Origin: Polynucleobacter ibericus
GTDB lineage: Bacteria; Pseudomonadota; Gammaproteobacteria; Burkholderiales; Burkholderiaceae
Direction: 5' to 3'
Length of the DNA: 64,000 nucleotides
NCBI RefSeq assembly: GCF_018687955.1
Contig: NZ_CP061309.1
Location: forward strand, 1,173,564 to 1,237,563
The translations under genes were made by a program, and so were the position numbers. This document shows positions 38,315-63,433 of this stretch, one piece after another. Numbering within the stretch: the stretch's first letter is position 1; each line of letters opens with the position of its first letter. The notes below the pieces were generated by a model, which was not told the DNA's origin, searched no databases, and was given only the letters and a program-made list of their open reading frames with translations.

Positions 38315-38332
38315 GAGGCATATAACTGTCAT
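38315..38332 (+). promoter_or_regulatory. Possible PhoB box before H1-like/ppk2 operon
   Basis: GAGGCATATAACTGTCAT: a perfect CTGTCAT unit with a weak (4/7) partner 11 bp before it. A second reading pairs the same unit with the sequence to its right, giving a TAAAAC -10 candidate at 38355. Weaker than the boxes at pstS, ppx and the second ppk2. Confidence 0.45.
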
Positions 38333-41279: not shown

Positions 41280-41319
41280 TCGTCATAAAACTGTCTTGTA
41301 ACTGTCATGCTGCTTTCAT
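41280..41319 (+). promoter_or_regulatory. Tandem PhoB boxes of the lipid operon
   Basis: Four CTGTCAT-like units start at 41280, 41291, 41302 and 41313, exactly 11 bp apart, with matches of 5, 6, 7 and 6 out of 7. This is two adjoining Pho boxes. A CTTAAT or TAATAC -10 candidate lies at 41330-41337, leaving little or no leader before the ATG at 41344. Confidence 0.8.
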
Positions 41320-46198: not shown

Positions 46199-46241
46199 AA
46201 ATGGAATGCTGCTTCAATTGTGTCTATTTTATGTAAAAACG

Positions 46242-46259
46242 ATGACACATTGATGAAAA
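46242..46259 (-). promoter_or_regulatory. PhoB box of ppx
   Basis: Minus strand TTTTCATCAATGTGTCAT: units of 5/7 and 6/7, 11 bp apart. Exactly 10 bp later is TAAAAT (5/6 -10). Located 44 bp before the ppx ATG. Confidence 0.7.
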
Positions 46260-49033: not shown

Positions 49034-49085
49034 AGGAGGCAATTTGGTGGATAAATTGGGTCAAATTAGACTATCTACCAAAATA

Positions 49086-49103
49086 ATGACAAATCAATGA
49101 CTG
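49086..49103 (-). promoter_or_regulatory. PhoB box of phoA
   Basis: Minus strand CAGTCATTGATTTGTCAT: two 6/7 units 11 bp apart. Ten bp later lies GATAGT (4/6 -10). Confidence 0.75.
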
Positions 49104-51585: not shown

Positions 51586-51612
51586 ATCTTCAGAACTTAC
51601 CAAGGTCGAACC

Positions 51613-51789
51613 TTAAATGATTTCGTCAAGTCGTAAAGAGTATTTGTTATCTAGCACAAAATGATTTTTGCGCTGATCACGTAAATTATTTTGATATTGA
51701 AATTGTTGTTCTTTGAGATTCGATTGAAGTGGGTCTTTGACTTCCTTGCGAAATACTTCATACAGATATTTATTTAAATTAGAAGTCAT
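51613..51789 (-). CDS. 58-residue hypothetical protein in the arsC2 operon
   Basis: Short, highly charged protein with no recognisable family: LNKYLYEVFRKEVKDPLQ, then Gln/Asn/Arg-rich sequence. AAAAGGG 5 bases before the ATG at 51789 is a good ribosome site and is why I start here rather than at 51813. It ends 27 bp before the arsC2 start and is preceded by a hairpin with a T-run. Confidence 0.6.
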   Translation of the reverse strand: MTSNLNKYLYEVFRKEVKDPLQSNLKEQQFQYQNNLRDQRKNHFVLDNKYSLRLDEII

Positions 51790-51813
51790 GCTAACCCTTT
51801 TCTCTTGATTCAA

Positions 51814-51841
51814 AAATAACCCCTCAATCCTAAGAGGGGTT
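51814..51841 (-). terminator. Hairpin between microprotein and 58-residue gene
   Basis: 8-bp stem AACCCCTC / GAGGGGTT (51818-51841). On the minus strand the stem is followed by TTATTTTTG-like T-rich sequence, so it can end part of the transcription coming from the microprotein gene. Confidence 0.7.
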
Positions 51842-51870
51842 TATTGCACTTTTATTAAAGCGTAAAGCTA

Positions 51871-51963
51871 TTAGCTACCTAACTGATGATGGGAATAGCG
51901 CTTTGTATAAGCTAAGCGTGCTTCACTCCACGATTGCAACATAGCTAAAATTATCTTTTTCAT
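51871..51963 (-). CDS. 30-residue microprotein, first gene of arsC2 operon
   Basis: A 30-codon frame starting MKKIILAMLQSW and ending with a basic, histidine-containing tail (KRYSHHQLGS). An excellent ribosome site, AAAGGAG, lies 5-6 bases before the ATG. The first part could form an amphipathic helix; no signal peptide or membrane segment is convincing. A terminator-like hairpin follows 30 bp after the stop. A PhoB-box-like element and -10 lie 75-120 bp upstream. No family recognised. Confidence 0.68.
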   Translation of the reverse strand: MKKIILAMLQSWSEARLAYTKRYSHHQLGS

Positions 51964-52054
51964 ATCGACTCCTTTGTCTTAAGTAGAAATTGGCGCACCC
52001 TTTTGAGGTAAACCAAGTTAGATATTTGCTGCAGTTGAATTCTTCACTATTGAT

Positions 52055-52083
52055 GTGACAGAGTGATTGCTCTTTTATGACAC
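52055..52083 (-). promoter_or_regulatory. PhoB-box array before the microprotein/arsC2 operon
   Basis: Minus strand units GTGTCAT (52077-52083) and CTGTCAC (52055-52061), each 6/7, are 22 bp apart with a weak unit (3/7) midway. Exactly 10 bp after the last unit is AAGAAT (52039-52044), a 4/6 -10. Confidence 0.55.
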
Positions 52084-52134
52084 TTTTGAAATCACTGAGA
52101 TACACTGAGTCATCAGACTTTTACTGGAGAGCAA

Positions 52135-52696: not shown

Positions 52697-52897
52697 ATGA
52701 GCAAATATACATATGAAGATGCTGTAAAACAGCTACAAGAATCTGGTGCTATTGGCTTGGTGGACTTAAAGAGTCTCCCGCATGATGATTTAAACGAACT
52801 TTTCGAAGAGATTAAGGTTTGGTGTCTATATGCCAACGGGAAACCTGAAAAGCTTCCTAAAGAATCCAAGAAGAAGAAAAAGAAAAAGAAGGACTAG
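52697..52897 (+). CDS. Small protein with poly-lysine tail
   Basis: A 66-residue protein: a helical part (YEDAVKQLQESGAIGLVDLK, then DDLNELFEEIKVWCLY) and a C-terminal run rich in lysine (eight of the last nine residues). No family recognised. The reading frame overlaps the convergent phoR stop by 4 bases. Ribosome site is weak (AGATAGAAAA). The lysine tail recalls the Lys-rich proteins elsewhere in the window and might bind polyphosphate or nucleic acid (speculative). Confidence 0.6.
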   Translation: MSKYTYEDAVKQLQESGAIGLVDLKSLPHDDLNELFEEIKVWCLYANGKPEKLPKESKKKKKKKKD

Positions 52898-54207
52898 CTC
52901 TTCAGCTCCGCGGCAGTAAGGCGCTCTTTGGGAAAGCGCAACATAAAGGTGCTCCCCCTGCCCGGAGTACTTTCAATAATCAATTGAGCCTGATGGCGAC
53001 TAGCAATATGCTTCACAATCGCTAGACCTAAACCTGTACCACCCGTATCTCGAGAGCGGCTTCGATCTACACGATAGAAGCGCTCTGTTAAACGCGATAG
53101 ATGTTCCGCTGCAATACCAGGGCCGGTATCCGTTACCGAAAACTCTCCCTGACCTTCTGCATTGACATTCCACTTCACATGGATTTCGCCGACATCAGGG
53201 GTATAGCGAATTGCATTTGATACCAGATTACTAAATGCCGACAAAACTTCGCGCTCTTCACCCAATACATCTTGCTTAGATAAGACATCAAAAGAGAAAG
53301 AATGTTTTCCTAGCGAGAGTGCTTCTGCATCATTTTTTAGTAAAGCCATCAAGGTCGGTAACGAAATCGGTTTAGAAACTGCAGGTAATGAATTTGATTC
53401 TAGATTGGCTAAGGTTAGGAGATCCTCAACCAAACTCTTCATGCGCAGTGCTTGCGCCATCATCATTTCAAAATACTGATCTTGCTGTTCTTTTTTAAGA
53501 TCTAAGGTCTGTACAGTTTCCAAAAAACCCATCAAAACCGTAATAGGTGTTCTCATCTCATGTGAGACGTTAGCCACAAAGTCGCGACGCATGGCATCCG
53601 CTTTTTGCAGATCAGTGACGTTTTGAACTAATAGCAAATGACGCTTTTGCCCAAATGGAAAGGCCTGCAACATTAAGCTGATGCTACTACTAGGGCCCAT
53701 TCTCTCCATCAGCAAGGGCTCATCAAAATTTCTTTTGGTGATGTATTGAATAAACTCTGGTCTACGTATTAAAAAATTAATACGCTGCATGACATCACGT
53801 TTATAAGTGAGCCCGAAAAAACTCTCAGCAATGCTATTGCACCACTCAATTTGATCGTTTTCATCCAACATCACAATGCCGTTAGGTGATGCCTGAAAAG
53901 CTTCTATAAAGTGATGATGTTGGCGCTCAATCGTCAGGAGTTTTTGTTTCTGATTTTTAATCAAGCGCTGTAGCCTGAAAAAAACTTCTTCCCAATATCC
54001 ACTTGGTAGCGACATCGATTCTAGAGAATCGTTGAGGATGTATTTTCTGAGGTTTGCTAAATTGATGTATGAGTAAACCAATGGAACGGAGAGTATGAAT
54101 ATTCCCAGCGGAATAGCCCATTGAGCCCCCCAAAATTCTAGGGCAATAAAAGCCGCTATGAGGGCGAGGCAAACTAGAAAGGCGAACCGGGTTAATGCGG
54201 AAATCAT
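52894..54207 (-). CDS. phoR: Phosphate sensor histidine kinase PhoR
   Basis: Membrane histidine kinase that phosphorylates PhoB when phosphate is scarce. Two N-terminal helices lie within residues 5-48, with a PAS domain near 100-190 (AFQASPNGIVMLDENDQIEWCN). The HisKA box FVANVSHEMRTPIT places the phospho-acceptor at His216. ATPase boxes: NLVSNAIRYTP, DTGPGI and GGTGLGLAIVKHI. Its length of 437 is close to E. coli PhoR. It lies last in pstSCAB-phoU-phoB-phoR. Confidence 0.96.
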   Translation of the reverse strand: MISALTRFAFLVCLALIAAFIALEFWGAQWAIPLGIFILSVPLVYSYINLANLRKYILNDSLESMSLPSGYWEEVFFRLQRLIKNQKQKLLTIERQHHHFIEAFQASPNGIVMLDENDQIEWCNSIAESFFGLTYKRDVMQRINFLIRRPEFIQYITKRNFDEPLLMERMGPSSSISLMLQAFPFGQKRHLLLVQNVTDLQKADAMRRDFVANVSHEMRTPITVLMGFLETVQTLDLKKEQQDQYFEMMMAQALRMKSLVEDLLTLANLESNSLPAVSKPISLPTLMALLKNDAEALSLGKHSFSFDVLSKQDVLGEEREVLSAFSNLVSNAIRYTPDVGEIHVKWNVNAEGQGEFSVTDTGPGIAAEHLSRLTERFYRVDRSRSRDTGGTGLGLAIVKHIASRHQAQLIIESTPGRGSTFMLRFPKERLTAAELKS

Positions 54208-54264: not shown

Positions 54265-54978
54265 TTACGACTCTGTAGGCGTCTTAGTGATACGGTATCC
54301 GCTGCCACGAACTGTTTCAATATATCGGTCGCAATCTACCGGAGCTAAAGCGGCTCTAAGGCGCTTTATATGAACGTCTACTGTGCGCTCTTCGATGTAC
54401 ACCTCATTGCCCCAAACATTGTCTAATAAGCTAGCGCGAGAATGCACACGCTCGGGGTTGGCCATGAAAAACTGTAATAGCCTGTATTCGGTTGGCCCTA
54501 ATGGAATAGGCTTAGGGTCAATATCCGGCCAAATAGCCAGTACACGATGAGAGCTTGGATCCAATTTAATGGGGCCAATACTCAAAGGGCCAGTATCTTC
54601 AATTGGGGACTGTCTACGCAATAAGGCTTTCACCCTCGCTACCAACTCTTTAGGCGAGAAAGGCTTAGTCACATAATCATCCGCCCCAGAATCTAAGCCC
54701 AAGACTTTATCAACCTCTTCACTTTTAGCGGTGAGCATTAAGATAGGCAGACCCCTAGTTCGCTCTTGAGACCTAAGCTCTTTGGCAAATTGAACGCCGG
54801 ATTTACCAGGGAGCATCCAGTCCAAAATCAGCAGGCTCGGCAAGCGATCCTTCATAATCGCTAGCGCTAAATCCGTCTGCATGACTTTCTCAACCTCAAA
54901 ACCAGCGTGAGTCAGATTGATTGCGATTAATTCAGCAATTGATGGCTCATCTTCAACGATTAGGATGCGATGCGTCAT
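54265..54978 (-). CDS. phoB: Response regulator PhoB
   Basis: OmpR-type activator of the phosphate regulon. The receiver has acidic residues near 9-11 (VEDE), phosphorylation site Asp53 (LLILDWMLPGKSG) and Lys in DDYVTKPFSPKEL. The DNA-binding winged helix begins near residue 130 and has the recognition helix region RTVDVHIKRLRAAL. It is 237 residues. It is probably the factor that binds the Pho boxes listed in this window. Confidence 0.97.
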   Translation of the reverse strand: MTHRILIVEDEPSIAELIAINLTHAGFEVEKVMQTDLALAIMKDRLPSLLILDWMLPGKSGVQFAKELRSQERTRGLPILMLTAKSEEVDKVLGLDSGADDYVTKPFSPKELVARVKALLRRQSPIEDTGPLSIGPIKLDPSSHRVLAIWPDIDPKPIPLGPTEYRLLQFFMANPERVHSRASLLDNVWGNEVYIEERTVDVHIKRLRAALAPVDCDRYIETVRGSGYRITKTPTES

Positions 54979-62161: not shown

Positions 62162-63136
62162 ATGCGCCTTATTAAGACAGTCACCTTCAGCATTCTCTTA
62201 ATTTGCTCTTTTGGAGCTTTAGCTCAACCATCTGAGTCATTTAAGTTCATAGCTCTGGGTGATATGCCCTATAGACTCCCAGATGACTATCTTCGTTACG
62301 AGCGACTAATTTCTGAAATCAACCAGAAAAAACCGAGTTTTAGTATCTTTATTGGTGACACGAAATCAGGATCCACCCCTTGTAGTGATGAATACAATCA
62401 AAAGGTAAAGAGCTACTTTAATCAATTTATTTCACCATTGATCTACAGCGTTGGGGATAACGAATGGACTGATTGCCATAGACCGCTTGCTGGTTCTTAC
62501 GATCCAATTGAGCGATTGAATACTCTTAGAAGCGAATTCTTCAATTCCCAAAAGAGTTTTGGTAAACAAAAGATTAGCCTCACTAGACAATCGGATACCA
62601 ATTCTCGCTATCAGAAGTTTGTTGAAAACGCCTATTGGATAAAGAATCAATTTTTATTTGTGAGCATACATATTCCTGGATCCAACAATAACTTCGAGGC
62701 TGATGAGCGATCAAAAGCAGAATATGAGGAGCGCAACCGAGCTAATTTAGAGTGGATAGAAAATGCTTTTGCACTTGCTTCGAGCAAAGGATACCTCGGA
62801 ATTATCTTTAGTTATCAGGCCGATATGTTTTATACGGCAGCACAGGCAATCAATGCAGATAGCGGTTATCGCGACACATTACATTCTCTCAGTAAGAATG
62901 CACAAGAATTCAAAAAACCCATCCTTTTAATTCATGGTGACAGTCATCGACTTATTCTTGATCAACCATTGAAAACAATTAATCAAAAACAGATACTCGA
63001 GAATGTTCTACGCTTGCAGATTATGGGTGCCGAGCAGGTGCAAGCAGTCGAAATTCAGGTAGACCCAAAGTCTGAGCAGCCCTTCAGTTTTACCCCTATT
63101 TTGCTAAGGCAGAATATGAATCAACCTAAACCGTAA
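62162..63136 (+). CDS. Secreted calcineurin-like phosphoesterase
   Basis: A 324-residue exported protein with a signal peptide (core TFSILLICSFGALAQ). The body has the layout of a metallophosphoesterase: FIALGDMPY near residue 31, IFIGDTKSG, YSVGDNEWTDCH (where GNHD is usual) and HGDSHRL near residue 263. The altered GDNE is shared by a subgroup of extracellular phosphoesterases. Its location in the phosphate region suggests that it frees phosphate from organic sources; this is inferred. Confidence 0.75.
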   Translation: MRLIKTVTFSILLICSFGALAQPSESFKFIALGDMPYRLPDDYLRYERLISEINQKKPSFSIFIGDTKSGSTPCSDEYNQKVKSYFNQFISPLIYSVGDNEWTDCHRPLAGSYDPIERLNTLRSEFFNSQKSFGKQKISLTRQSDTNSRYQKFVENAYWIKNQFLFVSIHIPGSNNNFEADERSKAEYEERNRANLEWIENAFALASSKGYLGIIFSYQADMFYTAAQAINADSGYRDTLHSLSKNAQEFKKPILLIHGDSHRLILDQPLKTINQKQILENVLRLQIMGAEQVQAVEIQVDPKSEQPFSFTPILLRQNMNQPKP

Positions 63137-63207: not shown

Positions 63208-63252
63208 TGTCATGAAACTCACACAAAGGTGTCATATTTCAGCTGTAAAGTA
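63208..63252 (+). promoter_or_regulatory. PhoB-box array and -10 in front of small RNA
   Basis: ATGTCAT at 63208 and GTGTCAT at 63230 (6/7 each) are 22 bp apart with a weaker unit (CTCACAC) at 63219, keeping the 11-bp phase. Exactly 10 bp after the last unit is TAAAGT (63247-63252), a 4/6 -10. Confidence 0.6.
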
Positions 63253-63258
63253 TAGAAA

Positions 63259-63433
63259 TACTTATGGGAGATGAAGTGTAATTCTCTCGCCATTGTTTGC
63301 GAATAGTTTGTGCTAACAGCCCATAGGTAACCAAATCACTCATGATCTTGAGCTTGCTATGAGTCAAGCATGCTGCCTGCGCAATTCCACTCTGCTCTTA
63401 TAAAATTAAAGCCACCCGAGGGTGGCTTTTTGG
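63259..63433 (+). ncRNA. Candidate small RNA, about 175 nt
   Basis: Predicted transcript from the PhoB-type promoter to the terminator at 63408-63433. It contains no coding frame of note and no known RNA motif. Ends are estimates from the -10 and the terminator T-run. It could also be the leader or tail of something else, but both flanking genes face away from or end before it. Confidence 0.45.
63408..63433 (+). terminator. Terminator at the end of the small RNA region
   Basis: Stem AAAGCCACC / GGTGGCTTT with a CGAG tetraloop, then a T-run (63427-63431). Minus-strand sequence after the stem is TTTAATTTTA, so it may also serve the amidohydrolase gene. Confidence 0.9.

Follow-up and report, generated by a model that had tools for sequence, protein, structure and literature searches.

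What does a PhoB-type promoter drive if it is followed by a terminator and, apparently, nothing to translate? This question is raised by the gap between two convergent genes of Polynucleobacter ibericus, close to the end of the 64,000-nucleotide stretch of contig NZ_CP061309.1 that we analysed as a whole (hereafter the window), where the first-pass annotation had proposed a gene for a phosphate-regulated small RNA. Polynucleobacter is a widespread freshwater genus, and in fresh water phosphorus often limits growth. The gap had been described as the only large one and as a neighbour of the pst operon. Other stretches of the window, e.g. 51604-52134, are likewise free in a crude list of ORFs of ≥110 aa, and the second description has to be corrected: a pst-phoU-phoB-phoR cluster is indeed found near the element, with PhoB encoded at 54265-54978 and PhoR at 52894-54207, both in the window, but the start of pstS is 3.7 kb away with four genes between, and the element is not part of the operon. 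Hfq is encoded in the same genome. The features of the locus are as follows.

62162 to 63136, plus strand: 324-aa gene, the anchor of the locus, directly upstream of the hairpin unit and co-oriented with it
63208 to 63251, plus strand: PhoB-type promoter (TGTCAT units, weak middle unit, -10-like TAAAGT)
63259 to 63333, plus strand: conserved hairpin of ~75 nt, a predicted RNA (BLAST block, covariance model, covariation)
63359 to 63403, plus strand: 14-codon open frame MSQACCLRNSTLLL, with a residual ATG AGT where relatives start the small ORF C described below (by eye)
63408 to 63433, both strands usable: intrinsic-terminator-like stem with T run (scan and sequence)

The promoter proposed earlier is present in the sequence. 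TGTCATG at 63208 and TGTCATA at 63230 lie 22 bp apart, a weak unit (TCACAC, 4/6 matches) stands between them at 63219, and the hexamer TAAAGT at 63246 begins exactly 10 bp past the second TGTCAT unit, so that TGTCA-type repeats in an 11-bp register, with a weak middle unit, are followed after 10 nt by a -10-like element. The pattern TGTCAY-N16-TGTCAY-N10-TANNNT has a single perfect match in the 64-kb window, namely 63208-63251; with up to two mismatches allowed there are 3 matches versus 0.48 expected from shuffles. A similar geometry is seen at pstS in the genus: among 22 promoters of this gene, one of them from the window's own genome, a count by eye gave a TAT-type hexamer 10 nt past the box in 20; in L196 the hexamer comes after a third unit, and L199 has TAGTCT. 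Judged by eye, the 10-nt spacing is common to five box-bearing sites of the window, its own pstS among them, and is missing at 38316. Further PhoB-like boxes of the window are located at 38316, 40433, 41281-41319, 46231-46258, 49075-49102 and 59581. Some of them precede pstS, a gene resembling exopolyphosphatase genes or the region of a polyphosphate kinase 2 gene, which gives the window the look of a phosphate island; taken together, box pairs of this type do not exceed chance (74 matches in the window, 64.94 in shuffles).

Directly after the promoter lies the main feature of the region, a hairpin which had been overlooked before. A BLAST comparison of the gap with 101 genomes, its own included, picked out, besides the common terminator stem, a block (63259-63333) that recurs in further genomes of the genus; a second copy is present in the window's own genome. 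The block can be drawn as three stacked stems: P1 (UACUUAUGGG/CCCAUAGGUA), an internal loop AGAUGA/AACAG, P2 and an apical P3, followed by ACCA. This fold was drawn after the alignments had been seen, and the alignment holds 46 of the 50 copies described below, with G154, G012, G058 and G111 left out as their hairpins are identical to a kept row. P1, P2 and P3 are paired in 86.3% of cells, compared to 29.3-39.0% with the partners slid. Eleven pairs are changed on both sides (6.5 ± 1.3 in shuffles, 6-8 in the slid versions), and the double-change cells number 54 (14.3 ± 3.2 and 9-17, respectively). These compensatory changes support the fold. P2 and the apical stem supply the covariation evidence, P1 being a nearly invariant 10-bp stem that hardly varies. 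In 20-22 of the 46 rows the apical columns 30-34 do not pair, so that only part of the family has P3. Most conserved positions of the hairpin are paired. Unconstrained RNAalifold predicted 14 pairs, 5 of them with double changes, and single-sequence folding of five copies gave essentially the same fold for the window, G000b, G030 and G048, the inner part folding differently in G034. Folding energies, which we count against our reading, are modest: the window hairpin alone has a z of -2.00 relative to shuffles, and for the 181-nt region as a whole the gain over shuffles is small (z -1.60). One copy, G047b, looks decayed, and G114b scores below most others.

A covariance model built from 15 copies, whose filters may lose weak copies, finds 50 hairpins in 40 of the 186 genomes of the genus; the 146 genomes in which it finds no match count against our reading; among them, G166 carries the 324-aa neighbour gene at 82% identity with no hairpin behind the gene. 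This gene is present in 76/186 genomes of the genus. Its protein has no Pfam or NCBIfam family at cut-off and carries what we take to be phosphoesterase-like motifs, while the convergent gene beyond the terminator is an amidohydrolase according to Pfam. Among 30 fetched loci of the 324-aa gene, a simple pattern located the hairpin within 420 nt downstream in 9 and not in 21, and in five of the latter (G116, G150, G147, G029, G103) a copy followed by ORF C or by no ORF is found 0.7-3.2 kb further on. The covariance model matched only two of 250 genomes of the order, both from the same genus. An exact pattern, which misses variant copies, found 29 stretches in an 84,980-species collection; 23 belong to records under the name Polynucleobacter, the other 6 to MAGs identified no further than beta-proteobacteria or Burkholderiaceae. 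With exact pattern and covariance model, no record named to another genus carried the hairpin in the searched collections, and we dropped the idea of a wider host range. No Rfam family reaches its gathering threshold in the window, where at E ≤5 the terminator stem alone draws matches, two weak ones to Phe_leader that score 19 and 16.6 bits versus a cut-off of 55, and an Rfam scan of 14 related loci returned two tRNAs only. In the open-access library that we searched for RNAs and phosphate starvation in Polynucleobacter we found no earlier report of this hairpin RNA.

What follows the hairpin differs between copies. By tblastn, 32 of the 50 precede a 59-aa ORF (ORF B, MTTFTTEDRE...), 6 precede a basic ORF of ~55 aa (ORF C, ...RLIWQHL...), and 12, including the copy in the window, have neither downstream. 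The arrangement expected of a small-ORF leader, with ORF B or C starting right behind the hairpin, is thus found for 38/50 copies and not for the window copy, which makes the sRNA gene one of two readings. ORF B occurs in 33/186 genomes at 35 places, three of them (G147, G185, G101) without a recognisable hairpin, and by eye some B ORFs are damaged (the frame in G135, the start in G134). Neither small ORF has a Pfam family at E 1, and the one NCBIfam match, to B, is weak (E 0.052) and falls far short of the cut-off.

The second reading, and the strongest rival to a stand-alone RNA, takes the hairpin for a leader that works in cis only, as a 5' stabiliser or translation control of small-ORF mRNAs, and that lost its function in the window when the ORF was deleted. 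We regard this as unlikely. It would account for the B or C ORF behind 38/50 copies, for the residual ATG AGT in the window and for the hairpin's first base lying at the predicted transcription start, a position typical of 5' stabilisers; at one B ORF that lacks the family hairpin (G147, L145 ~375-400) a short, different and unrelated stem-loop was seen by eye to start ~28 nt after TGTCAT. The evidence from the ORF-less copies, presented below, points the other way. A riboswitch-like or protein-bound cis element, controlling whatever follows and in the window the 14-codon frame, appears improbable to us: the conserved internal loop, the nearly invariant P1 sequence and the position before ORFs are what one would expect of it, but 12/50 copies have no B or C ORF to control, and the competing local hairpin that might provide a switch (columns 19-32) was rejected, as it has no covariation beyond shuffles.

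Several other small ORFs and leaders were noted at or near these loci. In L041 (G030) a further 56-aa ORF (..LLKERLTWQH..) is located upstream of ORF B, ~730-600 bases before the hairpin, and weak matches to ORFs of this type occur near the B locus in several genomes. Other Polynucleobacter loci (L220-L238, e.g. L220:1400-1480) carry a second 5'-leader hairpin before another small ORF (..NELVQERLIWQHL..). It is unlike the first in sequence, has 23 predicted pairs of which 10 are changed on both sides (14 rows), also ends in a run like GGCAACCA, and gave no Rfam match in the 5 such loci scanned; its ORF and ORF C share the RLIWQHL motif. On the minus strand of L235:1095-1199, in the same genus, there is a SAM-I/IV riboswitch match of 57.4 bits.

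The promoter is coupled to the hairpin in most of the family. TGTCAY is located 28-30 nt upstream of the hairpin in 44 of the 49 copies with readable upstream DNA, four of the remaining five have a one-base variant, and only the decayed G047b lacks it; for positions drawn at random from the same loci, the corresponding figure is 84 of 20000. As the copies are related by descent, the count reflects constraint on the spacing and not independent events. It suggests that transcription probably starts at the base of the hairpin, and from the position of the -10 element the RNA in the window would begin at about 63257-63259. The full 22-bp PhoB repeat is kept in 9/49 copies, namely in 7/12 ORF-less, 2/6 C and 0/31 B copies. 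That none of the 31 tested B copies has it, and 4/6 C copies lack it as well, counts against our reading, and with their different upstream layout PhoB control of the B copies is uncertain. By eye, an inverted repeat of the type TGTCACATTTGA...CAAATATGACAATTTCACC is conserved in the regions upstream of B copies (e.g. L041 1290-1500) and precedes the B promoters together with a GATAGA block, an arrangement that does not resemble a plain PhoB box.

Two further explanations are touched by this spacing. The hairpin is co-oriented with the 324-aa gene and lies ~120 nt behind it with no terminator reported between, so it might be a 3'-UTR element or terminator-proximal structure of that gene's mRNA; we consider this very improbable, given an own promoter at a near-fixed distance and the other neighbours that B copies have within the 1.5 kb examined. 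Palindromic ends and a patchy distribution could also indicate an element acting as DNA, such as a mobile repeat or recombination site. Here the near-fixed promoter distance is joined by the many G-U pairs kept on the plus strand, e.g. U4-G70 in 40/46 rows, which point to RNA made from that strand. Since viral contigs had no match to the exact hairpin pattern, and plasmids and phages none by BLAST, a mobile or phage element was rejected, and we give the DNA-level explanation hardly any credence.

The choice between a stand-alone RNA and a leftover leader is addressed by the conservation of hairpins that no ORF follows; the comparison covered 7/12 ORF-less copies together with two C copies. The ORF-less hairpins of the window and G052 are identical at 74/77 positions, the four-fold sites of the neighbour gene at 42/88 and the 100 bases downstream at 54/99. 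In the group of G034, G163, G162, G168 and G019 the hairpin agrees at 74-76/77 positions, with fractions of 0.46-0.84 for four-fold sites and 0.42-0.94 downstream; G034 alone, compared with its four ORF-less relatives, has 74-75/77 in the hairpin and 0.46-0.48 at four-fold sites. Within the two ORF-less clades hairpins are therefore 96-99% identical, compared to 46-84% at four-fold sites and 42-94% in the downstream 100 bases, which argues against a functionless remnant. Between the two clades identity is lower (66-70/77, four-fold sites 0.34-0.42), and we count this against our reading. Together with the covariation, these values describe an RNA body conserved without a coding sequence. A lack of conservation beyond the terminator among close relatives had been named as what would disprove an sRNA gene; instead, a structured 75-nt element is strongly conserved, ORF-less relatives included. 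The ORF-less state also appears in three places, G116, G000+G052 and the G034 group, on a tree of the neighbour gene's protein (24 rows; one gene, not a species tree). It requires at least three changes on this tree, two of them forced by well-supported branches, and we count the three places against a leftover leader. We infer repeated loss of the ORF with the hairpin kept, a direction and a number of losses in place of which gains may also have occurred.

Downstream of the hairpin there is a terminator-like stem where a terminator had been proposed. The stem AAAGCCACCC/GGGTGGCTTT occupies 63408-63429 and a T run is present, while the scan calls a terminator on the minus strand only; the plus-strand one went unreported because three T were counted into the stem. 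On the plus strand five T follow GCCACCC/GGGTGGC, so the stem could serve both convergent units, and 63408-63433 is probably the 3' end of the RNA as well as of the amidohydrolase mRNA. Some 24-31 nt of stem and T run match five other places of the own genome at 90-100%. The scan also covered five ORF-less relatives, and in three of these a terminator on the plus strand follows the hairpin after 56-61 nt; it found none close behind the G034 copy and none behind the G052 copy, which we count against our reading.

In agreement with the first-pass annotation, no convincing ORF was found between promoter and terminator. Plus-strand frames of ≥12 aa are 13-26 aa long, apart from a 46-aa frame that crosses the terminator, and on the minus strand there is a 42-aa TTG frame at 63239-63367. 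We also considered a small ORF conserved within the hairpin (ATGGGAGATGA...) and dropped it by eye, as frames and stops vary among copies. Downstream of the window copy tblastn gave no match to the B or C proteins. The 14-codon frame is probably not a gene; it may be what erosion has left of the beginning of the small ORF that trails the hairpin in some relatives.

Since the hairpin is kept in many relatives, some without a protein after it, the locus probably encodes a new small regulatory RNA. We favour, with moderate confidence, a PhoB-activated, ORF-less, structured RNA of ~175 nt (about 63257-63433) with a functional 5' hairpin, derived from a leader and acting in trans. The sRNA gene as first proposed is supported in part: the conservation and the PhoB geometry are established by sequence comparison, and the transcript, its control by PhoB and its regulatory role are predictions. 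Under phosphate starvation, phosphorylated PhoB would occupy the TGTCAT repeat, which would stand in for a -35 element, transcription would start at the hairpin base, and the RNA would end at the shared terminator. Its working part would be the 5'-terminal 75-nt hairpin with the nearly invariant 10-bp stem and the conserved asymmetric internal loop, acting in trans, where its binding partner would most likely be a protein or another RNA. We think it probable that the unit arose from the mRNA leader of a small protein, the small ORF apparently having been lost two or more times at the locus, with promoter and hairpin staying under selection. More speculative, and in our opinion rather doubtful, is the extension that the hairpin is a portable module on its way from mRNA leader to sRNA, heading two small-protein mRNAs or standing alone and acting in trans during phosphate starvation, with the ORFs as dispensable cargo; as such it could, for example, titrate a common RNA-binding protein.

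The E. coli ompA leader is a 5'-terminal stem-loop that stabilises its mRNA. Stabilisers of this type resemble our element in having a hairpin at or next to the 5' end; here, in contrast, the sequence of stem and loop is conserved and the hairpin persists without an ORF. PhoB promoters of E. coli and S. meliloti, as outlined in a part of PMC3616915, are alike in that the PhoB box replaces the -35 element just upstream of the start, stated there for E. coli in particular; the promoter in the window differs by its strong units 22 bp apart, the weak middle unit and the lack of an ORF after it. An sRNA of E. coli that acts on rpoS translation is said to be induced by PhoB and to need Hfq (Ruiz and Silhavy 2003, cited in PMC8829014), and the likeness, known to us through this citation and not by sequence or structure, is the PhoB induction, which is putative here. 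Small RNAs of Sinorhizobium meliloti, from another class of Proteobacteria and likened by description rather than sequence, respond to phosphate limitation (PMC8829014, PMC2573895, in the sections concerned); according to part of PMC2573895, predicted sRNA genes with putative PhoB sites are listed, and the transcripts upregulated by phosphate starvation have no evident PhoB site. Structured RNA candidates from related bacteria include Polynucleobacter-1 RNA (RF01718), described in a portion of PMC2864571 for Burkholderiales and fresh water, whose model has no match in the window or the 14 related loci scanned, and the genus-centred icd-II, carA and HRC-28-1 motifs of Polynucleobacter, set apart by the description in an excerpt of PMC8632094, which locates them beside icd, carA and rpiA.

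If our reading is correct, this structured RNA, centred on one genus and coupled to a promoter of the Pho type, would constitute a new RNA family, and it would offer the unusual case of a change from leader to stand-alone RNA that can be traced in living relatives.
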